Part shown: positions 1 through 13,968 of the stretch, one piece after another
Numbering within the stretch: position 1 is the first letter of the stretch
Layout of the letters: each line of letters begins with the position of its first letter
DNA from: Hyphomicrobiales bacterium
GTDB taxonomy: Bacteria > Pseudomonadota > Alphaproteobacteria > Rhizobiales > Xanthobacteraceae
DNA length: 64,000 bases
NCBI GenBank assembly: GCA_018335895.1
Contig: JAGXQU010000191.1
Coordinates: 25,239 to 89,238, forward strand
Direction of reading: 5' to 3'
Notes under the pieces: model-generated
What the model was told of the DNA's origin: nothing
The model's input: only the letters and a program-made list of their open reading frames with translations
Databases searched by the model: none
Translations under genes and position numbers: made by a program

Positions 1-615
1 CTGGAAGCAGATGTGCTCGGCCGGATTTACCAGGCCCAGTTCCGCTTGCGTCCGGGCGATGGCCAAGGCGATGCGGCATATCTCGATCGTCAACCCTATT
101 TTCAGCGTATGCCGAGATTTCTGATCCATGAAACCGGCATTCATCTAATCGACGTTTTTCGATATCTGTTCGGTGAGGTCGACTCGGTGATCGCGGCCTT
201 GCGCAAGCTGAACTCCGCTATCTCCGGGGAGGACTCGGGAATCGTCATTTTTGACATGACTTCCGGCGCGCGATGCGTTTTTGATGGTAACCGGCTTGCT
301 GATCACGTAGCCGAAAACCGGCGACTGACGATGGGGGAGTTGCTTATCGAGGGATCCAAGGGATCACTGCGTCTCGACGGCGATGGCAACATCTGGATTC
401 GGTCTTTTCTTGCAAATGAGGAGCACAAACATCATTATGAATGGAGCAACGTCGATTTCGGCGGAGATTGCGTTTTTCGTTTTCAACGGCACGTCGTAGA
501 CCACCTTTTGCGCGGGGATGTCCTCCACAATTCCGCAGCCGATTACCTGACCAATATTCGCGTTGAGGAAGCCGTCTATGCCTCGAGCAAGCAAGGCTGC
601 CGTATCCCGATCTAA
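1..615 (+). CDS. Gfo/Idh/MocA family oxidoreductase, C-terminal part (5' end outside window)
   Basis: The frame is open from base 1, so the ORF-track GTG start at 13 is probably internal and the N-terminal Rossmann NAD(P)-binding domain lies upstream of the window. The visible ~200 residues match the C-terminal substrate/dimerisation domain of this family, with the hallmark HETGIHLIDVFRYLFGEV helix followed by beta strands (FDMTSGARCVFDGNR, EGSKGSLRLDG). Such enzymes oxidise or reduce sugars, inositols and sugar acids. The downstream regulator starts inside its 3' end (578), so the two are translationally linked. The adjacent OtnC-like aldolase suggests a sugar-acid substrate. The family is clear; the substrate is unknown. 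Confidence 0.82.
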   Translation: MEADVLGRIYQAQFRLRPGDGQGDAAYLDRQPYFQRMPRFLIHETGIHLIDVFRYLFGEVDSVIAALRKLNSAISGEDSGIVIFDMTSGARCVFDGNRLADHVAENRRLTMGELLIEGSKGSLRLDGDGNIWIRSFLANEEHKHHYEWSNVDFGGDCVFRFQRHVVDHLLRGDVLHNSAADYLTNIRVEEAVYASSKQGCRIPI

Positions 616-1309
616 AGCACGGCCGCCACGCGCGGTGCAGCGACCGGCACCGTCGGTCAGCGCCCGCGATGAAGCATATCTGGCCCTTAAGCGCCTGATC
701 ATGACCAATCAGATTTCCGCCGGTTCGCAGATTTTGGAATCGGAAGCCGCTGAGCGGCTGGGTATGAGCCGCACACCCGTACGCGAAGCAATGATCCGTC
801 TGGAGCAAGAGGGAATTGTCGAATTGCGCAGCAGGCACGGCATGCGCGTGCTTCCGCTCTCGGCTTCGGATATGCAGGAGATCTACGAGGTTCTCACCGC
901 TCTCGAGAGCACTGCAGCTGCAATCGTCGCATCTCGCGGCCTTAGCGATGAGGAGTTGCAACGTTTACGCGACGCGGTCAACGAAATGGATCGAGCGTTG
1001 GCGAAGGACGATCTTCTGCGTTGGAGCCAGGCTGACGAGACTTTTCATCTGCTACTCGTCGATCTGTCAGGTAACAGCCGGATCAGAACGTTTGTGGGTC
1101 AGGTCTGGGAACAGTCGAACCGGGCCCGACTTCTTACCTTGCGGCTTCGGCCCAAGCCGGTCGACTCAAATAAGGATCACGCAGCATTGGTTGATGCTAT
1201 CGCGCGTCGCGACCCGACTACGGCAAAAAAGGTGCACGAAGCGCACCGCAGACGCGCAGGGGCAATGCTGACGGCGCTTCTGGCCGAACACGGATTCAAG
1301 CAACTGTGA
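578..1309 (+). CDS. GntR family transcriptional regulator, FadR/FCD subfamily
   Basis: About 243 residues. An N-terminal winged helix-turn-helix (SAGSQILESEAAERLGMSRT, then PVREAMIRLEQEGIVE) is followed by an all-helical FCD ligand domain (EIYEVLTALESTAAAIVASR, FHLLLVDLSGN). FCD domains usually bind a metal and a carboxylate effector. The track start at 563 is a TTG; I prefer ATG 578 because GAGGAA sits 7 bases upstream. The gene overlaps the dehydrogenase 3' end and the following aldolase (GTGA overlap), so it is part of the operon it probably regulates. The effector is likely a sugar acid handled by its neighbours (inference). Confidence 0.88.
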   Translation: MPRASKAAVSRSKARPPRAVQRPAPSVSARDEAYLALKRLIMTNQISAGSQILESEAAERLGMSRTPVREAMIRLEQEGIVELRSRHGMRVLPLSASDMQEIYEVLTALESTAAAIVASRGLSDEELQRLRDAVNEMDRALAKDDLLRWSQADETFHLLLVDLSGNSRIRTFVGQVWEQSNRARLLTLRLRPKPVDSNKDHAALVDAIARRDPTTAKKVHEAHRRRAGAMLTALLAEHGFKQL

Positions 1310-1962
1310 GCGGGACTGAAGACCAGGCCAGAGAGGCTCTCGTTGGATTCGCAAAGTCACTCTTTGCGAGAGGCTTCACAGTCGGTTCGTCGGGCAATAT
1401 TTCGGTACGGCTAAAAGACGGATTTCTGGTTACGCCGACCAATAGCTGCTTCGGCGATCTTCACGCCGAGGACATTTCCAAGCTCGGGGCAGACGGAACA
1501 CACGTGAGCGGAAGGCAGCCTTCGAAAGAATGGGCGATGCATAAGGCGATGCTCGACACCCGGCCAAACGACAACGCCGTCGTCCATCTGCATTCGACTT
1601 ATGCGACCGCGCTGTCCTGCTTGGATGGACTCGATGAGAACGATTGTATCCCTCCACTGACTCCCTACTTCATCATGAGGGTGGGCAGAGCAAAGCTGCT
1701 TCCCTATTTCAGACCCGGATCAAGCGAGATTGCCGCTGCATTGTCCGCTCTGAATGGGCAATACACAGGAGTTCTCCTCGCGAATCACGGTCCAGTCGTA
1801 TGCGGTGCATCTCTAGCGGACGCAGTATATGCCGCCGAAGAGATGGAAGAAGCCAGCAAGATTGCCATGCTGACAAATCGCTTGGCGGTTCGTTCGCTCT
1901 CCGCTGAACAGATCGATGACTTGATCGCAACGTTCGGAAAGCCGTTTCCCCTTAAACGGTAG
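1306..1962 (+). CDS. Class II aldolase/adducin family protein, OtnC-like (3-oxo-tetronate 4-phosphate decarboxylase type)
   Basis: 218 residues, the usual length for small class II aldolases. Visible motifs are the phosphate-binding GSSGNISVR near residue 25, the metal-binding VHLHSTYATALSCL around residue 95, and NHGPVVCG with a following helix EEMEEASKIAML. The stretch LTPYFIMRVGRAKLLPYFRPG resembles OtnC proteins, which decarboxylate 3-oxo-tetronate 4-phosphate in tetronate breakdown. The GTG start overlaps the regulator's TGA. No OtnK-type kinase or OtnI isomerase is visible, so the pathway may continue upstream of the window. An L-fuculose-phosphate aldolase-like role is the alternative. 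Confidence 0.8.
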   Translation: MSGTEDQAREALVGFAKSLFARGFTVGSSGNISVRLKDGFLVTPTNSCFGDLHAEDISKLGADGTHVSGRQPSKEWAMHKAMLDTRPNDNAVVHLHSTYATALSCLDGLDENDCIPPLTPYFIMRVGRAKLLPYFRPGSSEIAAALSALNGQYTGVLLANHGPVVCGASLADAVYAAEEMEEASKIAMLTNRLAVRSLSAEQIDDLIATFGKPFPLKR

Positions 1963-1990
1963 AACTCGGATCGCGTGGGGGACGGCCTAA

Positions 1991-3049
1991 CTATTTCGCG
2001 GGAATTCGAACTGTCGAAAGGTCAACTCCTACCACTATGGTCCCCTCAAACCCTCCTGCCATCGCGGCGCTCTTATAGTCGGCCTCTGTCAATGGACCGT
2101 TCGGAATCCTGTATGGACCGTGACGTTGCGCCCCAAGAGACGGTGCCAGATGCGTTAGCATCAGATACTTTATCCCTGCACGCTTTGCCATTGCACCGAG
2201 ATCGGTAGTCCCGGATTGACGATAGTAGATCGAAGCAGGCATTCCACTAGTGTTATCTGGTGCCATCACCGGGTGCATGGTTGAGTGCACGAGAATATCG
2301 GCGCCGCGAGCAAGCCTTTCCACTTGTTCCGAAGTGGACGTCGCACGAGGTGGCGTGACGACGTCGTTGCCGGCATCCCCGCCGATTACGACGCTGCCCG
2401 CGGGCGTATCAACACGGTACGAAGCATGCCCTGGAATATGATTGGAGCGAATTGCGCTGACTTTCACCTCTCCCGAGGACCACACGACTTGCACATCGTT
2501 CTTCGGCTCGAACGTGATCAGATTTACGATATCAGCGGGGCCGCCTGGTAGCCGCGTCTTGTCCTCAGCAATTCGTTGCGCAATCTCGCCAGACTGAATG
2601 AGAGGGTCCCCGATATGCTGAACAAATTTTGAACAGCTAAGTGTATGCCCCAATGGGGATAATGCGTTTACGCTGCAGACAACATCCAACTTGGGGCCGG
2701 TAGAGTTGTAGTTCCATCTCAGCTGAGCAATCTCGGAGAATCCCTCAGTATGATCGGAATGCATATGAGTAAAGAATATTGCCTTTAATTGCGCGGGTAC
2801 TACGCCTACTTGCGACATTCGCAACAGAGAGCCTCGCCCCGCATCAAATTGCAGCTGGACGGCGTTGCAATTGTTTGAGTCATCACCGTATCGAACAAGC
2901 GTTCCCGCACCAGCGACACCGTTAAAGATGGGTGGTCCGCTTTGTGTGCCTGTCAGGGTTACAATCAAACATGGCGCGGCTTGCGCAGCTGCTGACAAGC
3001 ACGCCGTCCAAACCATGCTTGCAACCGCCAAAAGGAAATGTTGACGCAT
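1991..3049 (-). CDS. Exported metallo-beta-lactamase fold hydrolase
   Basis: 352 residues beginning with a clear Sec signal peptide (LLAVASMVWTACLSAAAQA, cleavage near residue 25), so it acts in the periplasm or outside. The di-zinc signature is present as THMHSDHTEG, with further likely metal ligands in VIGGDAGND and a C-terminal LTHLAPS. The early VRYGDDSNNCNAVQLQFDAGRG region resembles RNase Z/arylsulfatase-like members rather than true beta-lactamases. It converges on the aldolase gene with only 28 bases between stops and is divergent from the GntR gene at 3338. The substrate is unknown; a lactone or ester of an aromatic or sugar metabolite would fit the context. Confidence 0.78.
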   Translation of the reverse strand: MRQHFLLAVASMVWTACLSAAAQAAPCLIVTLTGTQSGPPIFNGVAGAGTLVRYGDDSNNCNAVQLQFDAGRGSLLRMSQVGVVPAQLKAIFFTHMHSDHTEGFSEIAQLRWNYNSTGPKLDVVCSVNALSPLGHTLSCSKFVQHIGDPLIQSGEIAQRIAEDKTRLPGGPADIVNLITFEPKNDVQVVWSSGEVKVSAIRSNHIPGHASYRVDTPAGSVVIGGDAGNDVVTPPRATSTSEQVERLARGADILVHSTMHPVMAPDNTSGMPASIYYRQSGTTDLGAMAKRAGIKYLMLTHLAPSLGAQRHGPYRIPNGPLTEADYKSAAMAGGFEGTIVVGVDLSTVRIPAK

Positions 3050-3337
3050 ATATATTCTCCCCTGCTTGAGACGCGCACATTCAACCGATCACTGTCTAGA
3101 CTCTAACCGACTCTGGATCGTCCTCTGTCGTGTAGCGACACACTTACGCGGTATGACATCATCCTCCCCCTACCTCACCGAAGCGGAAAAGTCTGGACGC
3201 AGCCATTCGCTCCGATTGACCGACTACCACCTAGCTGTAAGCGCTCGTTCCAAAAAAAATATCTCTTGCTACACTGCTCGCTTGGCTTAAGATTCATTCG
3301 CGCGTATCCACTGACTAACTTTGCAGTCGCCAAATCC

Positions 3338-4102
3338 ATGCCGCAAAAGATCATTCCTCCTGCAACCGGCCATTCCCAACGGACGTCGACCGAAGACTCG
3401 CGCGCTCGAATTGCAGATGAAGTTGAAATGCTTTCCGAAGACTCCGAATCGGCGGGCTCGCTGACACGAGCCGCATACTTGCGCCTTCGACAGGACATTC
3501 TCTCGGGCGACTTGCCGCCAGGAAAAAAACTGAGGCTAGGGGATTTAAAAGAGTTGTACGGCATCGGGATCAGTCCGCTTCGGGAGGCGCTGAATCTTCT
3601 CACGACATTTGATCTTGTCGAGAGGATTGAGCAACGCGGCTTCCGGGTCGCCAGCGTTGGAAGAGAAGAGTTTAGAGATGTTCTGGAGTTCCGTTGCTGG
3701 CTGGAAGACCGGATGTTGCGGGAGGCCATTGTTCGCGGAGACGCGTCCTGGGAGGAAGCCGTTCTTCTTGCCGGCCATCGCCTCGCTCGCGCGCCCCGGG
3801 GCAATGCCAAAGACTCCTCCGTATCCACACGATGGGAAGCGCTTCATAAGGCATTTCATCTTTCACTGGTTTCCGCCTGTGGCTCGCCTTTGATGTTGCG
3901 TACGTGGCATCAGCTTTATGACCTCAATATCCGCTATCGCCGGCTGGCCGCCCCGGAGGCTTATCCCGCGCGCGACATCAATGCCGAGCATAAATCAATC
4001 CTGGAAGCAGTCCTCTCGCGCGATGCTGACGCTGCGGTTGCCGTTTTGCTCGACCATTACCGAACGACTGGAAAGTATCTTTCAACACAGCTCAATACCT
4101 AA
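3338..4102 (+). CDS. GntR family transcriptional regulator, FCD subfamily
   Basis: 254 residues from ATG 3338. The longer track ORF begins at a TTG with no family-like sequence, and the first 24 residues are probably not translated. The winged HTH (LRQDILSGDLPPGKKLRLGD, GISPLREALNLLTT) is preceded by a 45-residue polar tail, longer than usual. The FCD domain follows (FRDVLEFRCWLEDRMLREAI, AEHKSILEAVLSRDADAAV). It lies between the divergent hydrolase gene and, tail to tail, the dioxygenase/TRAP operon, making it the likely local regulator of one or both. No good Shine-Dalgarno precedes the ATG. The effector is unknown. Confidence 0.87.
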   Translation: MPQKIIPPATGHSQRTSTEDSRARIADEVEMLSEDSESAGSLTRAAYLRLRQDILSGDLPPGKKLRLGDLKELYGIGISPLREALNLLTTFDLVERIEQRGFRVASVGREEFRDVLEFRCWLEDRMLREAIVRGDASWEEAVLLAGHRLARAPRGNAKDSSVSTRWEALHKAFHLSLVSACGSPLMLRTWHQLYDLNIRYRRLAAPEAYPARDINAEHKSILEAVLSRDADAAVAVLLDHYRTTGKYLSTQLNT

Positions 4103-4167
4103 TTTCTCCGACTATCCTGACTAGCGCGGTCGCTCACATTCTTGACGTTCATTGTCAATCTGCTTCC

Positions 4168-5043
4168 CTACTCTTTGGGTTCTGGCGCGAGGACGAAGTC
4201 GAACTCAACTCGTGAATACGGTGTTGGCAGAGTGTCTCTAATCTGCAGTTCCGCCGGCAGTTCCTGTCTGCTCTCACTACTCTCATAGTTTACGCAAAGC
4301 GCTGTTCTTACGCCGAACACGGCATCCACTTCGATATAGGGATCATCACTCGGAAATATCTCCGTCACGAGTGTTCGAAATCCCGGCGCGGAAATGATGA
4401 AGTGAATATGGGACGGCCGCCATGGCGTGCGGCCTGTCGAACGCAGAAGCTCTCCTACTGGGCCATCGTCCGGAACCGTGTAAGGAGCAGGCCGGATCGT
4501 ACTGAACAGATATCGTCCGTCATCGCGGCAAGCGAGGCGACCGCGAAGGTTATAGTCCCGCTGCGAAGCATCCTGGTTCGAATACAATCCATTGTCTGCC
4601 GTTTGCCAGATTTCCATTGAGGCAGCCAACGGCTCTCCGGAGACGCTGCGAACGGTTCCGGAGAAAACGACGGCTTCTCCTTGATTGTCCCGTATAAAGT
4701 CTCCGCCGAACGGAATTTCGGGGGCTCCTAGAATATGGAAGGGACCGAGAACGCTTGCGGGGGTGGCCCCGGGCAGCGAATTGACCATGTCCACCAGCGA
4801 TGAGACGCCGAGAACGTCGGAGAACAGAACGAATTCGTTACGTTCGTGATCTGTTATTTTGCCTGCCGCCGTCAGTAGCTCCAAGGCGCGGCGCCATTCC
4901 GCGTGCGTGAGTTTGGTTTCTCGAATAAACCCATGCAGGTGCACGACGAGCCGCTCGAGAATTGTCTTCAACCGCGGATCAGTTTCAGGCCCGCAATAAC
5001 CGAGAAATGCGTCGGTAATTGAGATCTGGTCGATATTTCGCAT
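4168..5043 (-). CDS. Intradiol ring-cleavage dioxygenase, hydroxyquinol 1,2-dioxygenase type
   Basis: 291 residues with the N-terminal helical dimerisation domain (ERLVVHLHGFIRETKLTHAEW) and the catalytic beta-sandwich. The four non-haem Fe(III) ligands are visible: Tyr in NGLYSNQD, Tyr in RPAPYTVP, and both His in PSHIHF. VLGPFHI and WRPSHIHF strongly resemble hydroxyquinol and chlorocatechol dioxygenases, which cleave between two adjacent hydroxyls to give maleylacetate or a cis,cis-muconate. It is the last gene of the leftward operon, 14 bases after dctM. No maleylacetate reductase or muconate cycloisomerase is visible nearby, so the product must be processed elsewhere or by the FAH-family enzyme of the operon (inference). 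Confidence 0.9.
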   Translation of the reverse strand: MRNIDQISITDAFLGYCGPETDPRLKTILERLVVHLHGFIRETKLTHAEWRRALELLTAAGKITDHERNEFVLFSDVLGVSSLVDMVNSLPGATPASVLGPFHILGAPEIPFGGDFIRDNQGEAVVFSGTVRSVSGEPLAASMEIWQTADNGLYSNQDASQRDYNLRGRLACRDDGRYLFSTIRPAPYTVPDDGPVGELLRSTGRTPWRPSHIHFIISAPGFRTLVTEIFPSDDPYIEVDAVFGVRTALCVNYESSESRQELPAELQIRDTLPTPYSRVEFDFVLAPEPKE

Positions 5044-5057
5044 CGTTAAAGCACTCG

Positions 5058-6377
5058 CTATTTCAGGAGTCCTGTGCTGAGCACAGGAAAGATGATCAGA
5101 AGTATGAGCACCCCAAGCATGACAACCGCGAACGGAAATGCGCCCCTAAAGACGTCCGCGAGCGAAATATCGGACCGGTCGAGCGCAGCCCTGATAACAA
5201 AACAAGAAATGCCAAAGGGCGGTGTAAGCAGCCCAATCTCAGCGCCGACCACCGTAATAATCCCAAACCAGACAAGGCTGTAACCGAACTCTTCAACAGC
5301 CTTCATAAACAGGGGCGCGCAGATCAGAATGATGGAAGACGTATCGATAATTGTGCCGAGGAATAGAAGCAGAACTACGTAGATCGCCATCAGCCAAAAG
5401 AAACTGATGCTCGAATCGGAAAGCCAGGCGCTCAGCATTGATGGCAGTCCGGCTATTCCGAGCATCCGGCTATACATGGTTGCGGCCATGATCAAGAACA
5501 GGATGCTCGCTGTAATGTGCCCGGTATCGATCAACAATTCCTTGAACGCAGCAAGACTCAGCCGTCGCTGAAGTCCGATCAGAAACGCAACAAACGCACC
5601 GGCCGCTCCGGCCTCCGAAGCGGTAACGATGCCGCTATAAATTCCGCCGAGGACAATCACAATCAGAAGAACGAGCGGAAGCGCTTTTGCGATCAGCGCT
5701 CCCAGCGGCAAAGTGGGAATATCGTCTTGCCGATTTGTTGCAACAGCGCCCGTCCCGATGAACTGCGGCGTAAGATATGTCATCGCGATGATGGCCACGA
5801 TGAAGGCTGCTGCGAGGAGAAGTCCGGGCACGACGCCCGCCAGAAACATGTCGCCAACGCTTTGCTCGGCGACGAAGGCATAGATGATGAGCATGACGCT
5901 CGGCGGAATCAGCATTCCCAACACCGAACTGCCTGCGACAACACCTACGGCGAAGCGCTTCGAGTAATTGAAACGGATCATCTCCGGCACAGAAACTCGT
6001 GTAAACACGGATGCGGACGCGATCGAAGACCCGGTCACGGCTGCAAAAGCGGTATTTGCAACGACCGTTGTTATCCCAAGACCGCCGCGAACCCGCGCGA
6101 AAAGTTGGAATGCAACGTCATATATGTCCTTACCCATGCCGGTCTTGCCAACGATGAGCCCCATTAGAACGAAGGTCGGGATACTGGCGAAGTCGTAAGA
6201 CTTGATCGCGTCATTGACAGCAAGCGTCAGCAGGCTAACCGCAATCGCCGGGTCACCTTTCAGGATCCAAACGCCGACAAAGGAAACCGCTGCAAGTGCA
6301 ATCCCGACATACACGCCCGCGTAAATCAGAATTACGATCAAGACGAGCGAAGCAAACCCCAGAAGGAATGGGTCCAT
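5058..6377 (-). CDS. dctM: TRAP transporter large permease subunit (DctM family)
   Basis: 439 residues from ATG 6377; the track ORF runs 55 residues further upstream into unlikely sequence, while GAGGGGG precedes the chosen ATG. It is a polytopic inner-membrane protein with about 11-12 hydrophobic segments. Family motifs include PTFVLMGLIVGKTGM, the GSSIASASVFTRVSVPEM loop and GMLIPPSVMLIIYAF. With DctQ it forms the Na+-dependent membrane part of a TRAP importer that takes substrate from the periplasmic DctP protein. All three components are adjacent here. The neighbouring ring-cleavage dioxygenase suggests an aromatic or organic acid substrate (inference). Confidence 0.93.
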   Translation of the reverse strand: MDPFLLGFASLVLIVILIYAGVYVGIALAAVSFVGVWILKGDPAIAVSLLTLAVNDAIKSYDFASIPTFVLMGLIVGKTGMGKDIYDVAFQLFARVRGGLGITTVVANTAFAAVTGSSIASASVFTRVSVPEMIRFNYSKRFAVGVVAGSSVLGMLIPPSVMLIIYAFVAEQSVGDMFLAGVVPGLLLAAAFIVAIIAMTYLTPQFIGTGAVATNRQDDIPTLPLGALIAKALPLVLLIVIVLGGIYSGIVTASEAGAAGAFVAFLIGLQRRLSLAAFKELLIDTGHITASILFLIMAATMYSRMLGIAGLPSMLSAWLSDSSISFFWLMAIYVVLLLFLGTIIDTSSIILICAPLFMKAVEEFGYSLVWFGIITVVGAEIGLLTPPFGISCFVIRAALDRSDISLADVFRGAFPFAVVMLGVLILLIIFPVLSTGLLK

Positions 6378-6420
6378 CAGGGCCGCCCCCTCAGGTATCG
6401 GTTTGTTGCTCCCAAACAAC

Positions 6421-6981
6421 TCAAGGCTGGGACTCCTGCATTGGCACCCGTTCCCCCAGACCATCTTCCGCAAGGCGCCCTCGCAGAATGCGAACAGCGC
6501 GCCGAAGGAAAGCCAGTGCTGCAACCAGCGATCCGAACACAATCATTGCTTTGATCGGCCACTCCGGAAAATGAAACACGCCGCGCGTGCCAATGTACTG
6601 TCCTCGTTCATAAGCTTTAATCATGAGCGGTAGTGTTCCGAATGCGATAAGCGACATCACGACCACTCCCAGCAGCTCGAAGCCGGCGACAATCCATCGG
6701 CCGTAGGAACGGCCGCCATCAAGCCAGCCCTGAATATACCCATCCGAGCGCGTGAGCTTTCCGAGGCGAATGGTATCTCCGAGTTGGCAGAAGACGATCA
6801 TTGTCATCGATATCGCAACAATCTCGACGGCACCTGCGAGCGGCTTGTTCAAGAATGACCGCCCGAAGGCATCGAAATTTATGAGAACCACAAGAAACAG
6901 CACCCAGCCAGCGCCCAGCAGATTCATTCCGGAAATGAATCTGCTAAGCAAGTTGGCCTTGGCTCCAGATTTAAAACGCAA
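6421..6981 (-). CDS. dctQ: TRAP transporter small permease subunit (DctQ family)
   Basis: 186 residues with four transmembrane helices (AGWVLFLVVLINFDAFGRSF, VEIVAISMTMIVFCQLGDTI, GFELLGVVVMSLIAFGTLPL, MIVFGSLVAALAFL), typical of DctQ. The start is TTG 6981, supported by a GGAG 9 bases upstream. An R-x-F-L-N-x-P segment after helix 1 and the cytoplasmic loop GDTIRLGKLTRSD are usual for the family. It lies between dctP and dctM with short gaps of about 40 bases, so it belongs to the same operon and pairs with those subunits. Confidence 0.9.
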   Translation of the reverse strand: MRFKSGAKANLLSRFISGMNLLGAGWVLFLVVLINFDAFGRSFLNKPLAGAVEIVAISMTMIVFCQLGDTIRLGKLTRSDGYIQGWLDGGRSYGRWIVAGFELLGVVVMSLIAFGTLPLMIKAYERGQYIGTRGVFHFPEWPIKAMIVFGSLVAALAFLRRAVRILRGRLAEDGLGERVPMQESQP

Positions 6982-7020
6982 TTGCGTTTCTCCAGCGGAT
7001 GGTGCGGTTGTTGCCCTTGG

Positions 7021-8124
7021 TTACGCTTTGTCCCAGTCCCGTAACGGCTTCTCGCCTGCTGCTCGAAGCGCGTTCATGTAGTGGCTGACCATCGCCTTGG
7101 CTGGAATTCCCTTCTCCTCGAGACGAGCGCTCCACTCCGCCGCAAGGTTCGGAATCTTGTCCGCCCAAGCTTTTCGATCGGCATCTGACAACCGCGTAAT
7201 CTTCCCGCCTTTCGCTACGTATTCAGCCTCCGCCTTCGCAGCGAGTTGGACCGCCTCTTCTGCGAGACGATCACGATATGCGACAGCCACGTCCTTCAGG
7301 GTAGTCTGAACTTCGGGAGGCAGTTTCGCCCAGCTCGCTTTGTTGACGGTGAGCGATTTGTTGATCGCGCCGCCGGTTTCGACCTTCAGAACATGTGGTG
7401 CAACTTCGTGGAATTTGAACGTGTTGGCACCTTCCATCCAAAGCATGGCCCCATCAACGACGCCGCTATTCAGATTATTGTAATAGGTGGCCGAGCTTCC
7501 GGACACGCCAACAGCGCCAATCGGCGGCAAGTAGCGCGCGTTGATGCCTGCAACGTTGATTTTGCGCCCGTTTAGATCGGCGATCGAAGCGGCTGGCCGC
7601 TTCAGGAAGAGATCATACGTGTCGAAGGTGGCCGCATTGGTCAGCAGCACCTGATTGGCCTGCTCGAACTGCTGACGGAACGCCGGAAACTTGTCGGCGA
7701 TCTCATCCATGATCTTGCCGATGAGTTTCGGATTGCTGCTCGCGAACGGCACGTAGAACGGCAGATTATTTAGTGGCAACTTATCGCTGTAGAAAACCGT
7801 GGTAACGATAGCCATGTCGCCGAGACCGCTTTCCACGCCCTCGAGCACACCTTGGGGCTTAACGATCTGACCAGACCAGGCTTGAGTCCAGTCAATCTTA
7901 TACTTTCCTGACTTCGCAAGACGCCGGTCAACCTCCGGAATGAAATAGTCCGAAAACTCGCGAAGCCAAAGCACGCGCGGCGGATAGCCGTCCATCGCAG
8001 TGAGCTTGATCGTTTGAGGCTGCTGGCCGAAACCCGGAACGGGCAACAATGCAGCAGCGCCTCCCGCCAACACGGCGCGGCGGCTCAGCTTGACGGTGCG
8101 GACCACTTGTTTGCTGTTTGACAT
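7021..8124 (-). CDS. dctP: TRAP transporter substrate-binding protein (DctP family)
   Basis: 367 residues with a twin-arginine-like N terminus (KLSRRAVLAGGAAALL) and cleavage near PGFGQ, so a periplasmic protein probably exported by Tat. It has the DctP fold, with conserved segments such as RPAASIADLNGRKINVAG and MLWMEGANTFKFHEVAPHVL, and the usual long C-terminal helices. A clear GGGGAGAG ribosome site precedes ATG 8124. It delivers substrate to the DctQM pair encoded just downstream. It is only distantly like the two TakP-type proteins at 25566-27958. The ligand cannot be read from sequence. Confidence 0.9.
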   Translation of the reverse strand: MSNSKQVVRTVKLSRRAVLAGGAAALLPVPGFGQQPQTIKLTAMDGYPPRVLWLREFSDYFIPEVDRRLAKSGKYKIDWTQAWSGQIVKPQGVLEGVESGLGDMAIVTTVFYSDKLPLNNLPFYVPFASSNPKLIGKIMDEIADKFPAFRQQFEQANQVLLTNAATFDTYDLFLKRPAASIADLNGRKINVAGINARYLPPIGAVGVSGSSATYYNNLNSGVVDGAMLWMEGANTFKFHEVAPHVLKVETGGAINKSLTVNKASWAKLPPEVQTTLKDVAVAYRDRLAEEAVQLAAKAEAEYVAKGGKITRLSDADRKAWADKIPNLAAEWSARLEEKGIPAKAMVSHYMNALRAAGEKPLRDWDKA

Positions 8125-8178
8125 TAGTTCTCTCCCCAGTTTTCGTCTTTTGATATTCTTTGACAGCTCAATTCAGCG

Positions 8179-8649
8179 CTAACCTGTACGTGCCAGCCAG
8201 TTTTCCTCGATTACCGTTCCCGCAGCACGAAAGAGTTTGGCTAACGGGCAGAACTTCGCGACCTCGCCGGCGACCGTGGCGAGTTCCGATGCCGACGCAG
8301 GACCGTCGGATTTAACTTCAAGAACAATCTTCAAGAATGGAACATCGATTTCTTCCTGAAGCAGCACGCCCCGCCGATCGAACTCGCACGCCAAGTTTAT
8401 CGATAGATTTCCGATGTCGACCCCAAGTTTATGTGCAGCCTTGTGTGCAATCACATTCGTGCAGGCGATCAGCGCCGCCATGGCGGTTTCGGTTGGCGAC
8501 GGGCCGAGGTTGGTGCCACCACGCTCCTTGGGTTCGTCAACCGTGACCCCTACATCCCGCACACGAATATCGGTGCGTGCGTGCCCATTGCCGATCCCTG
8601 CCAACCGTATAGTGACGAGCGTTTTTTCTCGAATATTGACCATGTGCAT
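8179..8649 (-). CDS. OsmC family protein
   Basis: 156 residues matching the OsmC/Ohr fold, with the two conserved cysteines in LIACTNVIAHKAAHKLG and KFCPLAKLFRAAG, plus the typical GPSPTETAMAALIACTN segment. Many OsmC proteins reduce organic hydroperoxides through this cysteine pair, but divergent members exist in catabolic operons with unknown roles. Two nearby ATGs (8649 and 8643) are possible starts. It lies 4 bases after the RutE-like gene in the same operon. It may protect against peroxides formed during aromatic oxidation (inference). Confidence 0.85.
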   Translation of the reverse strand: MHMVNIREKTLVTIRLAGIGNGHARTDIRVRDVGVTVDEPKERGGTNLGPSPTETAMAALIACTNVIAHKAAHKLGVDIGNLSINLACEFDRRGVLLQEEIDVPFLKIVLEVKSDGPASASELATVAGEVAKFCPLAKLFRAAGTVIEENWLARTG

Positions 8650-8653
8650 CGCC

Positions 8654-9325
8654 CTACAAAATCGTGCAAACTTCGTCGAATGAGTATCGAGGAAGGCGCG
8701 GAAACAGGCCGGTCACATCAGCGTATCCGATCGTACAGAGCAGATTGGACCGGAATGTCGTTTCCGAGAAGAACTCTGAATCGACCATCGCATTATCGAA
8801 TCCTGACATGGCTCCCACATCGAAGCCGAGCGCGCGCGCCGCGATCATAAAGTAAGCGGCTTGAAGCGAGCTGTTACGAAATGCGGTTTCCGCGGCTTTC
8901 GTCTGACTCGCCCGATAGGGTCCGCTCATATCTTTGTGCGCGAAGAGACGGCCTAACGCCTTCCACCAGTCAATGTCATACGCAACAATGCATATGACGG
9001 GTGCCGCCAGCACCTTGGGCCTGTTTCCTTCAGATACGCACTTCAGGAGCCGTTCCTTCTGATCGATCGTACGAATGAAGACATAACGCGCAGGGTTGCC
9101 ATTGGTGCTTGTCGGCCCCCACCGCGCGACGGAGTGAATCTGACGCAGGTCTTCATCCGTTACCGGGATGGGCTTCCATGTGTGATGCGAGCGCGCGGTA
9201 CGAAGAATCAGATCGATGCCGTCGGTATCCAGTCTAGTGATCCGTTTGCGCAACGAAACGACATCGGCTTGTGCCAATTTTCTTTCATGGCTCACGCTGT
9301 CCGACACCGCATGAGCGCTCGTCAT
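8654..9325 (-). CDS. Nitroreductase family protein, RutE/malonic semialdehyde reductase-like
   Basis: 223 residues. The sequence closely follows RutE-type FMN reductases: ARWGPTSTNGNPARYVFIRT, KAAETAFRNSSLQAAYFMIA, MSGFDNAMVDSEFF and FPRLPRYSFDEV. RutE is reported to reduce malonic semialdehyde in pyrimidine breakdown, and relatives act as nitro or quinone reductases. The N terminus has about 40 extra residues compared with RutE. The start ATG overlaps the FAH-family stop codon (ATGA), implying coupled translation. No other rut genes are present, so its substrate in this operon is probably an aldehyde or quinone from the aromatic pathway (inference). Confidence 0.85.
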   Translation of the reverse strand: MTSAHAVSDSVSHERKLAQADVVSLRKRITRLDTDGIDLILRTARSHHTWKPIPVTDEDLRQIHSVARWGPTSTNGNPARYVFIRTIDQKERLLKCVSEGNRPKVLAAPVICIVAYDIDWWKALGRLFAHKDMSGPYRASQTKAAETAFRNSSLQAAYFMIAARALGFDVGAMSGFDNAMVDSEFFSETTFRSNLLCTIGYADVTGLFPRLPRYSFDEVCTIL

Positions 9326-10227
9326 GATGCCACCGCGACCTTTTCGCCTTCGGTCAGTGCATCTCGCCGTTCGTCAACGACTCTGCTCCTGAGTGTTCCA
9401 ATCCGCTCGATTTCGATTTCGATGATATCGCCATCCTTCATAAAGACCGGCGGCGTTCGCGCATGTCCAACTCCAGGAGGTGTGCCCATCGCAATCATGT
9501 CTCCTGGATGCAGCGTGCTGAACTCCGAGATGACCTCAATGGTCTTGGCAACCGGAAACAGCATGTCGGCCGTGTTCCCGTTCTGCATCACGGCCCCATT
9601 CAGGCGCGCACTTATAGAAAGGCCAGAAGCTCCCGCGGGCAGTTCGTCCGCAGTTACAACGATCGGTCCAATCGGGCCGGTTGCATCAAAATTCTTGCCC
9701 GGCGTCCACTGATGGGTCTTGCGCTGGTAATCGCGCACCGAAACGTCGTTGAAGATCGTGTAGCCGAATACATGCTCAAGCGCTGAGGCTTCCGATATGT
9801 GCTTGCCGCCCTTTCCGATGATGACCATGAGTTCGGCCTCATAGTCGAGGCGAACTGAGCATTGCGGCCGAACAATAGGCTCGGCTGCCGACATCACGCT
9901 TTCTCGAACACGTAAAAAAAGCGCCGGGTAGGATGGAATTTCATATCCGCCCTCCTTCGCGTGATCTGCGTAATTGAGACCCAGACAGACAATCTTTCCA
10001 GGATTCGATATCGGAATGTCAGGTGTGAACTCTGAGATCGGCCGCCTGGTCCCCGCACCGCCCGCGACCAGCGACGCAATCCGCGCGCCCAAGGCGGGGC
10101 CTCCTGCGATGATCCCTTCAAGGTCGGTCGGCAAATCGCTGGCGACGGTAGCCAAATCTATCGCCAAGTCACTCTCTACCAGCGCGATGCCACTTCTTTG
10201 GCCGCTCACAAATCTTAAGAACCGCAT
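9322..10227 (-). CDS. Fumarylacetoacetate hydrolase (FAH) family protein
   Basis: 301 residues with an N-terminal FAH-like cap and the catalytic C-terminal domain. Metal-binding acidic residues appear in SVRLDYEAELMVIIGKGG, and the family motif VSVRDYQRKTHQWTPGKNFD is intact, as is MIAMGTPPGVGHARTPPVF. Members hydrolyse or decarboxylate acylpyruvates, 2-oxo-hept-3-ene-dioates and similar ring-cleavage products. It is the first gene of the seven-gene leftward operon and has an AAGGCGGGG ribosome site. In context it likely processes a product of the operon's dioxygenase (inference). Confidence 0.9.
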   Translation of the reverse strand: MRFLRFVSGQRSGIALVESDLAIDLATVASDLPTDLEGIIAGGPALGARIASLVAGGAGTRRPISEFTPDIPISNPGKIVCLGLNYADHAKEGGYEIPSYPALFLRVRESVMSAAEPIVRPQCSVRLDYEAELMVIIGKGGKHISEASALEHVFGYTIFNDVSVRDYQRKTHQWTPGKNFDATGPIGPIVVTADELPAGASGLSISARLNGAVMQNGNTADMLFPVAKTIEVISEFSTLHPGDMIAMGTPPGVGHARTPPVFMKDGDIIEIEIERIGTLRSRVVDERRDALTEGEKVAVAS

Positions 10228-10362
10228 TTCAGGCCCCGCCTTGAGAAGCCAAGACTATGCAGAGAAACGAGGCGGAACGCAATTAATATATATATTCTGG
10301 CGTTCTTTCTCCACGATATGTATATTTCAGGGCCACTTCCGGACAGTTCAGCGGAGCATGCT
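10228..10362. promoter_or_regulatory. Divergent promoter region between the aromatic operon and the YciI-like gene
   Basis: This 135-base gap separates two genes transcribed away from each other and contains a strikingly AT-rich core (ATTAATATATATATTC at about 10280-10295, then GATATGTATATTTC). Promoters for both directions must lie here. The alternating TA run is partly palindromic and could also be bound by the local GntR regulator. I cannot assign exact -35/-10 boxes. Confidence 0.5.
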
Positions 10363-10749
10363 ATGACCAGTTGGTCCGATTATTCCGAGCGGGCGCGAGG
10401 TAAAGGGGTTCTCGCCAAGCAGTTGTTTATGGTTCGCTCCCGGCCTGCGGTATCTTTGGACGAACTCGCACGCGGGCTTTTCGAGCATCTCGAATACCAA
10501 AGGCTGCTGGAGAAACAGGGCATCCTGGTTTTTGCCGGCCCGCTTTCCGATGAATCCGGAAGCAAATGGTCCGGCGAAGGTTTGATCATATATCGCGCAG
10601 CTGATCTGGTTTCCGCAAAGGAAATTGCCGATGCAGATCCGATGCATCGCGAAGGATTGCGGAAATACGAAATACGAGCGTGGCTGCTGAATGAAGGCTC
10701 GCTGACATTACGGATCACGCTGTCAGATCAAAAACTCGAACTGCCGTAG
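10363..10749 (+). CDS. YciI-like domain protein
   Basis: 128 residues from ATG 10363, preceded by GGAG; the track start at 10318 is upstream in unlikely sequence. It carries the YciI/muconolactone-isomerase-like ferredoxin fold pattern: a first strand AKQLFMVRSRPA, a helix LFEHLEYQRLLEKQGILVFAGPL, and the typical YRAADLVSAKEIADADPMH segment. Such small proteins are found beside aromatic catabolic genes and some act as dehydrochlorinases or isomerases. Its divergent position opposite the dioxygenase operon suggests a role in the same pathway. The biochemical function is not known. Confidence 0.78.
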   Translation: MTSWSDYSERARGKGVLAKQLFMVRSRPAVSLDELARGLFEHLEYQRLLEKQGILVFAGPLSDESGSKWSGEGLIIYRAADLVSAKEIADADPMHREGLRKYEIRAWLLNEGSLTLRITLSDQKLELP

Positions 10750-11478
10750 AATAGAAATCTGCGACTAACGAACTGGCCATCCCGAAGGCCTGGTTCTTAG
10801 CATGTTGATCCTAGCCGATAGATCTCAACTTCAGTCTTGTCGTGTACATGAGCTTCGAACAAGCCAAAGAACGCTCCTACTAAGTGTTCCGAACAGCCAA
10901 ATAGCGATCGACGGCAGGTTTCGCGACGAAGCTACCAAGCTCAGGGGCCTAGATGTATTCTTCAACAAGTTGCCAACTTAAATCTCCCCGTTGAGGAGTT
11001 TCATTGTGGCTTCAACAGCGTGCTCAATCTTTCCGATTCGCCCCATGAGAGTTTCGTTGGAAGCACACTCTACGCAAAGAGAATACTCGAGCAGATTGCC
11101 AACGCGACGAGCAAACGCCGATCCGCGCGAACCAAACGTGGTCATTCGCCAGAATGGGAGTCTTTGGCACCAGCTAAGTTATTGAGATGTTGGCGCGCAT
11201 TCCCAAGCAGGCAGGAGAATTACCTGTAACAGTTTCGCGCCTTTTCTGCGCTGTCGTGCCACCAGAGATCACAGTGCGATTACGTCAGCGAATTGAAAAT
11301 CTCGCTTTCGCCCCAGGTCGGCCGACCCTCATTCGCGAGCAGATACGGCCATAAACCAATGTCCGTGCCGGAAACTCAGAAGCCGAACTTGTTAGGTTTG
11401 GCACAAACACAATCTCTAAACTAACATTCAAACCGGACCACCAAGTGGAGGCCGGTCAGTGCGCGCGGTCAAGAGCAA
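10750..11478. other. 729-base stretch without a recognisable gene
   Basis: Only short ORFs occur here (10991-11185 and 11020-11229 on the plus strand). Neither has a good ribosome site, a recognisable domain or family-like composition. The base composition is mixed and no tRNA, repeat array or terminator stands out. It may be decayed DNA inside the island plus the promoter of the channel gene at 11479. Confidence 0.5.
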
Positions 11479-12258
11479 ATGACGAAAACCAACTATCTTC
11501 AGATAACCCTTCGGGGTCTTTACTTTGGTGCCGACCAAAGAGCGCGGCAATTTCGTTATAGCCTACTGGCGTTCGACCTCGCCGCCATAGTGTTGTTTCT
11601 AGTCTCCTCATTTGCGGAAGGGCGATGGTGGATTGTTCTGCTTGATTTTGGGTTAGGAGCGCTACTGCTTATTGAGTTCAGCGCGCGAATATATGCCGAG
11701 AACGATCGGCGGCGACACTTGCTGAGCTTTGCAACACTTGCTGACGTCCTCGTTATTTCTTCATTACTGCTCCCAGCAATCTTAGAGAACTTCGCATTTC
11801 TTCGAGTATTTAGAGCGCTCCGGTTGCTACGATCATACCATTTATTGCGAGATTTAAGAGCTGACTCGGATTGGTTCCGCTTGCATGAGGATGTAATCCA
11901 ACGAACATTAAACCTTGGCGTCTTTATTTTCGTCGTTACATCCTCGGTCTACGTCAGTCAGCACAGTACAAATCCGCAAATAGTGAATTATGTAGATGCG
12001 CTCTACTTTACGATCACTACGCTAACAACGACCGGCTTCGGGGACATTACCTTGCAGGGTCCGGGCGGCCGCTTGTTGTCAGTGCTCATTATGGTTGTCG
12101 GCGTTGGTTTATTCTTGCGACTGCTGCAGGTACTTTTTCGGCCGAACAAAGTCAGATACGAATGTGACGACTGTGGGCTCGTTCTTCACGACGCTGACGC
12201 TGTTCACTGTAAGCATTGTGGACGCGTACTGCACATTGTGACCGAAGGAACAGCATGA
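11479..12258 (+). CDS. Voltage-gated-type potassium channel with C-terminal zinc ribbon
   Basis: 259 residues, inner membrane. Helices S1-S3 are followed by an S4-like voltage sensor with arginines every third residue (FLRVFRALRLLRSYHLLRDL, about 110-130), then S5, a pore helix with selectivity filter TTTGFGDI (about 178-185), and S6 (LLSVLIMVVGVGLFLRLLQV). The C-terminal ~35 residues form a CxxC...CxxC zinc ribbon (YECDDCGLVLHDADAVHCKH), an unusual cytoplasmic tail replacing the common RCK or cyclic-nucleotide domain. It stands alone, last in the AT-rich region. Ion selectivity for K+ follows from the filter; the ribbon's ligand role is inference. Confidence 0.88.
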   Translation: MTKTNYLQITLRGLYFGADQRARQFRYSLLAFDLAAIVLFLVSSFAEGRWWIVLLDFGLGALLLIEFSARIYAENDRRRHLLSFATLADVLVISSLLLPAILENFAFLRVFRALRLLRSYHLLRDLRADSDWFRLHEDVIQRTLNLGVFIFVVTSSVYVSQHSTNPQIVNYVDALYFTITTLTTTGFGDITLQGPGGRLLSVLIMVVGVGLFLRLLQVLFRPNKVRYECDDCGLVLHDADAVHCKHCGRVLHIVTEGTA

Positions 12259-12370
12259 ATGCCGGAGTGGGATTGTAGAAAACCCTTACGGATGATTTTA
12301 TCAAGCTCTCTATATCGGCGCTGAGAAGAATGGCCAGACGCGCTCTTGGCGTGCTGGCGAGTTTCTGTGC

Positions 12371-12426
12371 ACCTTCTCCCTTCACACGGGAGGGGTCACA
12401 GGTTCAATCCCCTGTCGCGCCCACCA
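12371..12426 (+). other. 3' fragment of a tRNA-Val(CAC) gene, putative island attachment site
   Basis: The fragment contains a perfect 5-bp anticodon stem (CTCCC/GGGAG, 12376-12392) around loop TTCACAC with anticodon CAC, a variable loop GGGTC, a T arm ACAGG/CCTGT (12398-12415), the acceptor 3' strand CGCGCCC and an encoded ACCA end at 12426. The 5' half is absent: upstream bases give no D arm, and only a doubtful partial acceptor match. The T loop has 8 rather than 7 bases, which suggests no selection as a working tRNA. Such 3' ends mark sites where integrases insert elements into tRNA genes, leaving an intact copy at the other end, here predicted to the left. Confidence 0.72.
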
Positions 12427-12451: not shown

Positions 12452-12748
12452 TCAGTAAAATCTTTGCCTACCGGGAAAGCGAGCGCCGAGCTGATCGTCG
12501 CGCATCCATACCACGCGGCATTTGCGCGTGACGCTGCGGCGCTTGTTGCGCGGGTCCTGGTCCGGCGTGAAAGACAGAACGAACTCCGAAGGAATGTTAT
12601 CGAGCGAATCTTCCCCCGGCGACAGCTTGAGCCGCGCGCCGGTATCGGAGAGATCGCTCACGGTGCAGGCACAGATCGGTTGTAGATCCGGCCAGTAAAT
12701 CCTGGCTGGCCGCCGCACCTTCTTCCGCTTGCTTACTCTCTTCTCCAT
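12452..12748 (-). CDS. PilZ domain protein
   Basis: 98 residues from ATG 12748. A basic N terminus (MEKRVSKRKKVRRPARIYW) supplies the RxxxR half of the c-di-GMP site, and VSDLSDTGARLKL resembles the (D/N)xSxxG half, so it may bind cyclic di-GMP. A single PilZ domain makes up the whole protein. A TTG at 12769, overlapping the upstream stop (TTGA), with AAGAAAGCGAG before it, is a possible alternative start. It follows the DUF2336 gene directly, probably in one transcript. The target process is unknown. Confidence 0.82.
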   Translation of the reverse strand: MEKRVSKRKKVRRPARIYWPDLQPICACTVSDLSDTGARLKLSPGEDSLDNIPSEFVLSFTPDQDPRNKRRSVTRKCRVVWMRDDQLGARFPGRQRFY

Positions 12749-12765
12749 TGTACTAATTCGAGTCG

Positions 12766-13860
12766 TCAACTCGCTTTCTTGTCGGTCAGACGCGAAATCA
12801 TAACCTGCAACTTTCGCTGTGCGGAAAGTTCGGAGAACAGGAGATACGATTTCTCCGCTTCGTCGAGCGCGGCGCCGGAAAGACCGTGCTTCGAGAAGCC
12901 TGCCGCGAGGATGGCCGAGACCGTCGGCCAGCTCACCTTCGCAGCCTTGCAGGCGACCAGCAGGCCGACATGATGATCGTCCTGCAAAAGGGTCGCGACG
13001 AAATCCACCGGTGCCCGGCAGAACAGCGCGAGCGTGGCCGAGACTTCGTCGAATTTCTTTTGCTGCGCGAAACCGAGCAGCACGCGCTCGTTCAGCTTTC
13101 CGTCGCGGTTGAGGCGTTTCACGACACCTTCCGCCGCGGCAAGATCGCGATACCCGAAGGCGCCGAGGCCGAGTTCCTCGGCAACCGACATCATCGCTTC
13201 CTGAATCTTCTTTTGCTGGTCCGGATCGGCGGCCGCGAGCAGCCGCGAGCGCACGAGATTGCTCGCGCGCATCAGAAGCTGCTTCAGCAGGGGAAGCGGG
13301 ATGTCGATCCGCAGGCCGAGGTTCTCCGAAATTTCGTCGTCGCCGTCGGCTTTGGCCACGATGCTCTTGTAGCCCTTGTCGGAGAAGCGCGCGCCGCCGT
13401 TGCGGGCGAGCTTGCCGACCACATGCGGATCGCCGCGCTCGATCAGAATATCAGTGATCGCTTCGCTCAGCTGTTCGCGGATCGCAATCGCAAGCAGGTG
13501 CGTCTGGCTCTTCGATTTCGCGATTTCGATGAGATCGTTCTCGTCGATACGATCCGACTGCGACAGCACCGGGCCGGCGACCGCGATGTTATCGTCGTGC
13601 GCGAGCAGCGAGATCATGTTGCGCGGCGCATTTCTCACCGGCGCGAACTTGAGACTGATCTGTGCGAGCACGTGTTCTTCGATGCGCCGGGCAAGATGCG
13701 TGAGAATCTCGTCGAACACCCCGACCTGCTCTTCGTTCAGGCGGCCGGCGTCGCTGAGGAATAGATCCGTAATGCGCCTGAGCAGCACGACGCGGCGCTC
13801 GGGCGCGCCGGTATGCAACGCGTCCTCGAGTTCAGACATGAGAGCAAGCGTAAATTTCAT
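12766..13860 (-). CDS. DUF2336 domain-containing protein
   Basis: 364 residues from ATG 13860; the track's TTG two codons upstream is less likely. The sequence is almost entirely helical and HEAT-like, with repeated patterns such as RRVVLLRRITDLFLSDAGRL and ISLLAHDDNIAVAGPVLSQS, and a later QQKIQEAMMSVAEELGLGAF. This matches the DUF2336 family common in Alphaproteobacteria, whose function is not established. It has no signal peptide or membrane segment, so it is cytosolic. The adjacent PilZ gene hints at c-di-GMP-linked signalling (inference). Confidence 0.83.
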   Translation of the reverse strand: MKFTLALMSELEDALHTGAPERRVVLLRRITDLFLSDAGRLNEEQVGVFDEILTHLARRIEEHVLAQISLKFAPVRNAPRNMISLLAHDDNIAVAGPVLSQSDRIDENDLIEIAKSKSQTHLLAIAIREQLSEAITDILIERGDPHVVGKLARNGGARFSDKGYKSIVAKADGDDEISENLGLRIDIPLPLLKQLLMRASNLVRSRLLAAADPDQQKKIQEAMMSVAEELGLGAFGYRDLAAAEGVVKRLNRDGKLNERVLLGFAQQKKFDEVSATLALFCRAPVDFVATLLQDDHHVGLLVACKAAKVSWPTVSAILAAGFSKHGLSGAALDEAEKSYLLFSELSAQRKLQVMISRLTDKKAS

Positions 13861-13968
13861 AAGCACTTACTAGCCCAAAGCCGCTAATGAGCGCTTAATC
13901 CAAATGGTTAGCAACGAAGCCGGAAAGCTGAAACTTTTCGCGAAAGTTTCCTTACAATTTTATCGAAC

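Follow-up and report, generated by a model that had tools for sequence, protein, structure and literature searches.

How did the 3' half of a tRNA-Val(CAC) gene come to lie by itself where DNA of low GC content passes into DNA of higher GC content, and does it mark the border of acquired DNA? The window analyzed here, a stretch of 64,000 bases, covers bases 25239-89238 of contig C191 (89,238 bases) from the draft genome G000 of a member of the Xanthobacteraceae, which amounts to 3.1 Mb in 191 contigs. Window positions 12376-12426 read CTCCCTTCACACGGGAGGGGTCACAGGTTCAATCCCCTGTCGCGCCCACCA and correspond to nucleotides 26-75 of tRNA-Val(CAC), with 50 of 51 alignment columns identical to the intact gene (E 4e-20). 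A 35-base core of this fragment occurs once in the window and in none of 100 shuffled versions. The fragment spans the anticodon stem to the CCA end, with the stem-loop CTCCC TTCACAC GGGAG, the T arm, the acceptor 3' strand and CCA all present, and with neither the D arm nor the acceptor 5' strand. The original prediction had named the same parts as present and the D arm as missing, and all of them were found as described; of its bounds, 12371-12426, the part from 12376 stands, and the first five bases (12371-12375) are not tRNA-derived. The single difference from the intact gene is one extra C, which gives the T loop of the fragment 8 bases instead of 7. This C is absent from the intact tRNA-Val of G000 and of the genus, in agreement with the earlier view of the 8-base loop as drift, and selection for tRNA function has presumably ceased to act on the displaced copy that carries it.

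ARAGORN annotates a complete tRNA-Val at window 12348-12422, a call that would speak for a functional second tRNA-Val at this place. We consider it a spurious over-call because the Rfam tRNA model matches nothing there, either genome-wide or in a local search at E values up to 10. The bases that would have to serve as D arm and acceptor 5' strand have no homology to tRNA, the T loop is one base too long, and relatives have no second tRNA at the site. Moreover, over-calling of integration fragments by tRNA-finding software is already documented, namely for tRNAscan-SE (PMC9897764). The probability that the fragment is a working second gene is practically negligible.

An intact tRNA-Val(CAC) gene, expected to the left of the window, is situated at C191:2272-2346; from there it is 22.9 kb to the first base of the window and 35.3 kb to the fragment. 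It is the only other close copy on the contig and lies, like the fragment, on the + strand, so that the intact tRNA at one end of the island and its 3' fragment at the other have the same orientation. The direct repeat formed by the two runs from the anticodon stem to CCA over 51 columns with one gap, where about 45-55 bases had been anticipated; anticodon-centred attachment sites form a class reported for Islander islands (PMC4383910). Downstream of CCA the fragment has TTTC and the intact gene of G000 ATAAG, and in uninterrupted relatives of the same genus CCA is followed by TTT or TTC. When a 60-base probe made of the tRNA end and downstream bases of the relative G006 was used, the match to the fragment reached base 54, and that to the intact gene stopped at base 50. 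Since host-type bases follow the fragment and not the intact gene, these alignments identify the fragment as the 3' end that the host gene had originally, and the end now carried by the intact gene as the one brought in by the element.

The block between the two tRNA copies, C191:2347-37613, is 35.3 kb long as read between two repeats in a draft assembly of 191 contigs, and 22.9 kb of it, on the left, fall outside the window. Its GC content is 55.8%, compared with 62.5% in the left and 61.5% in the right flank; in 1-kb windows the island has 0.558 versus 0.615 (Mann-Whitney p = 1.5e-13), with values of approximately 0.50-0.56 left of the fragment and 0.58-0.64 right of it. An unsupervised two-breakpoint change-point fit on the contig, blind to the positions of the tRNAs, gave 2300-38100 as the best low-GC segment, and the borders defined by the tRNA copies are 2346 and 37614. 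The right change point is thus at most 0.5 kb from the fragment, as the predicted GC shift at the junction requires, and the block as a whole differs in composition from the backbone.

The empty site that had been predicted for relatives was seen in five genomes of the same genus (G002, G003, G004, G006 and G007), which possess the same left neighbors, an intact tRNA-Val and the same right neighbors. Collinearity of the left flank extends to the tRNA or close to it in each of them. In G006 this flank aligns over its full length as far as the tRNA with 78% identity and the right flank resumes approximately 26 bp past the tRNA, at a DUF2336 gene, with 80% identity; G003 and G004 are arranged in the same way, the DUF2336 gene following 25-29 bp after the tRNA in these three genomes. 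The order in G002 and G007 is gph, tRNA-Val, PilZ, DUF2336, DUF2336, and the window keeps PilZ and one DUF2336 gene to the right of the fragment. Alignment of the homologous tRNA-Val regions of the relatives examined, including two further ones, G001 and G005, showed no island DNA, and for one TRAP binding protein of the island the other genomes of the genus gave nothing above 28% identity. A clean empty site is missing in G001 and G005, so the order is not supported by every relative. In G001 there is no DUF2336 gene beside tRNA-Val and about 2 kb of other DNA follows the tRNA. The G005 locus is split across contigs, and in the stretch L089:67-1191 its tRNA-Val seems inverted in relation to gph and PilZ when compared with the other members of the genus, an inversion which could be real or an assembly fault. 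When GTDB genomes were scanned with the DUF2336 neighbor, only three MAGs were retrieved, all from the same genus.

These comparisons also bear on the reading in which the low-GC block is ancestral backbone lost by the sister genomes and the repeat is a coincidence. The variation of PilZ and the second DUF2336, backbone genes here, among the relatives could be taken in its favor, but five genomes would have to have lost DNA exactly between the repeats, which is much less probable than a single insertion, the host-type downstream bases are attached to the fragment, and neither flank has a GC content like that of the block, all of which makes an ancestral origin extremely improbable. The 51-base repeat, the GC step at both ends and the empty site bear out the proposal that the truncated tRNA-Val(CAC) 3' end is the right border of an island. 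We therefore read the fragment, with a probability of about 0.94, as the displaced 3' end of the host tRNA-Val(CAC) gene, left by a mobile element that inserted 35.3 kb. The attachment site of such an element would have carried a copy of the tRNA 3' half, from the anticodon arm to CCA, and recombined with the host gene. On the left, the copy carried by the element would then have restored an intact tRNA, and the former 3' end of the host gene would have been pushed to the far end of the insert, where it would no longer be a working gene and would have gained one base. The insertion was probably performed by a tyrosine integrase with its crossover in the anticodon arm; its gene may later have been lost, or the enzyme may have acted in trans, and a fixed island with catabolic and transport genes would have resulted.

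A Pfam scan of about 33 island proteins gives a picture of the cargo; features inside the window are collected in Table 1. Transport is represented by two branched-chain-type ABC uptake systems, the TRAP transporter genes and an ion channel, and regulation by one TetR and two GntR proteins. Among the enzymes are an acyl-CoA ligase-type AMP-binding enzyme, a cobalamin-independent methionine-synthase-type protein, an isocitrate/isopropylmalate-type dehydrogenase and a Gfo/Idh oxidoreductase, together with a four-carbon acid sugar kinase-type protein (SBD_N/NBD_C), a gluconolactonase-type protein, a class II aldolase, an intradiol dioxygenase, an FAH-family hydrolase, a nitroreductase and OsmC- and YciI-type proteins. 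By these domain assignments it looks like a catabolic and uptake island. Neither relaxase nor type IV secretion/conjugation nor phage genes were found among these proteins by Pfam, which does not correspond to an ICE or a prophage. The permease of the first ABC system (L017:7952-8464) seems truncated, since it matches the BPD_transp_2 profile in the C-terminal part alone. Close to the intact tRNA, on its right side, is a truncated transposase gene (HTH_Tnp_1; C191:2768-3112). Window 11419-11460 is 76-97% identical to sequences in many genomes of the order, some of them near contig ends, as is the case with IS termini, and it is possibly an IS remnant near the right end of the island. When the right end was searched in 398 genomes of the order, only gene-level similarity, mainly to the ion channel, and this short IS-like stretch were found, and a plasmid search with the part of the island in the window returned one 108-base match only.

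Table 1. Features of the window at and around the right border of the island (positions are those of the window unless C191 is given).
Feature	Position	Strand	Evidence
Right-hand 12.4 kb of island	1..12375		Low GC; absent from empty site of relatives
GntR/FCD regulator	563..1309	+	Pfam PF00392, PF07729
Class II aldolase	1306..1962	+	Pfam PF00596
Intradiol ring-cleavage dioxygenase	4168..5043	-	Pfam PF00775, PF04444
TRAP transporter (DctM, DctQ, DctP)	5058..8124	-	Pfam PF06808, PF04290, PF03480
OsmC-like, nitroreductase, fumarylacetoacetate hydrolase family genes	8179..10227	-	Pfam PF02566, PF00881, PF01557
Ion channel (Ion_trans_2), last island gene	11479..12258	+	Pfam PF07885
Displaced 3' fragment of tRNA-Val(CAC), nt 26-75 plus one inserted C; probable distal attachment scar, island right border	12376..12426 (C191:37614-37664)	+	50/51 identity to C191:2272-2346; TTTC follows as in uninterrupted relatives
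Host backbone, PilZ-domain gene, directly after tRNA-Val in G002/G007	12452..12769	-	Pfam PF07238; tblastn to G002/G007
Host backbone, DUF2336 gene, adjoins tRNA-Val in relatives	12766..13866	-	Pfam PF10098; 83-84% identical orthologues beside tRNA-Val

An integrase gene had been expected left of the window beside the intact tRNA, and here the expectation failed. A profile search across the genome for the tyrosine recombinase domain PF00589, with stops read through, gave no match on C191, inside the island or elsewhere on the contig, and tblastn with the recombinases of G000 and of two genomes from other genera, G031 and G035, left no trace on it either. Of the recombinases on other contigs of G000, those of C74 and C179 represent one Xer-like gene that occurs at two contig ends, and the three on C56 are not linked to the tRNA-Val locus. 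Fragments of tRNA-Val(CAC) starting at nucleotides 27-29 are present in G018, G031 and G035, and in the latter two a recombinase or recombinase-like gene adjoins the fragment and not the intact tRNA beside which it had been sought. In G031 a 26-kb span at tRNA-Val(CAC) (L116:5309-6534, L117:11084-11158) has recombinase-like and phage-repressor-like genes at the fragment end, the former recognized by eye from the sequence and not by the PF00589 search; in G035 (L118:10064-11546) the gene next to the fragment encodes an intact tyrosine integrase, and a primase-like gene comes further along. Because these fragments adjoin recombinase genes, they show that the family includes putative integrases which use the tRNA-Val(CAC) site, and that an integrase gene can be located at the end where the fragment lies.

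Because C191 has no tyrosine recombinase, we only infer that the island entered by means of an integrase, and for the same reason it is probably immobilized. Loss of the integrase gene would account for its present state; alternatively, the island may naturally have no integrase and depend for its movement on trans-acting integrases from other elements directed at the anticodon-arm site of tRNA-Val(CAC), for example those of the related genera, to which we give a slim chance. The missing integrase, the truncated transposase gene and the stretch behaving like IS termini across many genomes would also fit recombination or duplication without any integrase, such as IS-mediated capture of a tRNA end with its cargo. 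However, the repeat runs from the anticodon stem to exactly CCA, the usual signature of tyrosine integrases that target tRNA genes (PMC4383910), fragments with the same end points are found next to recombinase genes in other genera, and both flanks are collinear with the empty site, so we regard an integrase-free origin as very unlikely. The displaced host 3' end thus remains our reading, and the island is a decayed or integrase-less example of the tRNA-gene-targeted integrative kind, for which we do not claim the active Islander-type form.

This reading provides nearly base-exact borders for a 35-kb acquired catabolic and transport block in an otherwise small (3.1 Mb) genome, and tRNA-Val(CAC) emerges as an insertion site common to members of the family. 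Island finders which require an integrase would miss the island, and a tRNA finder misannotates the fragment as an extra tRNA gene. Islander islands (PMC4383910) have the same arrangement, an intact tRNA and a displaced 3' fragment in the same orientation with the island in between, the same anticodon-centred crossover class (A) and a length range, 2-200 kb, which includes the present one; here, however, there is no integrase gene inside, and the Islander integrase filter would reject the island. The PYG1 island of Pyrococcus yayanosii, at tRNA-Gln and with direct repeats of 44 bp, likewise has a complete and a partial tRNA at its ends, the partial copy being misannotated as a tRNA gene (PMC9897764), although the tRNA, the domain of life and the cargo are different. 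Closest in site are the phage-like elements of G031 and G035, which use the same tRNA-Val(CAC) with nearly the same fragment end points (nucleotides 27/29-75), but in these the fragment end also bears a gene for a recombinase or integrase, whereas the island of the window has none and carries metabolic cargo. It is a genomic island of a well-understood kind with ordinary biology, and what is new is a further example of it.
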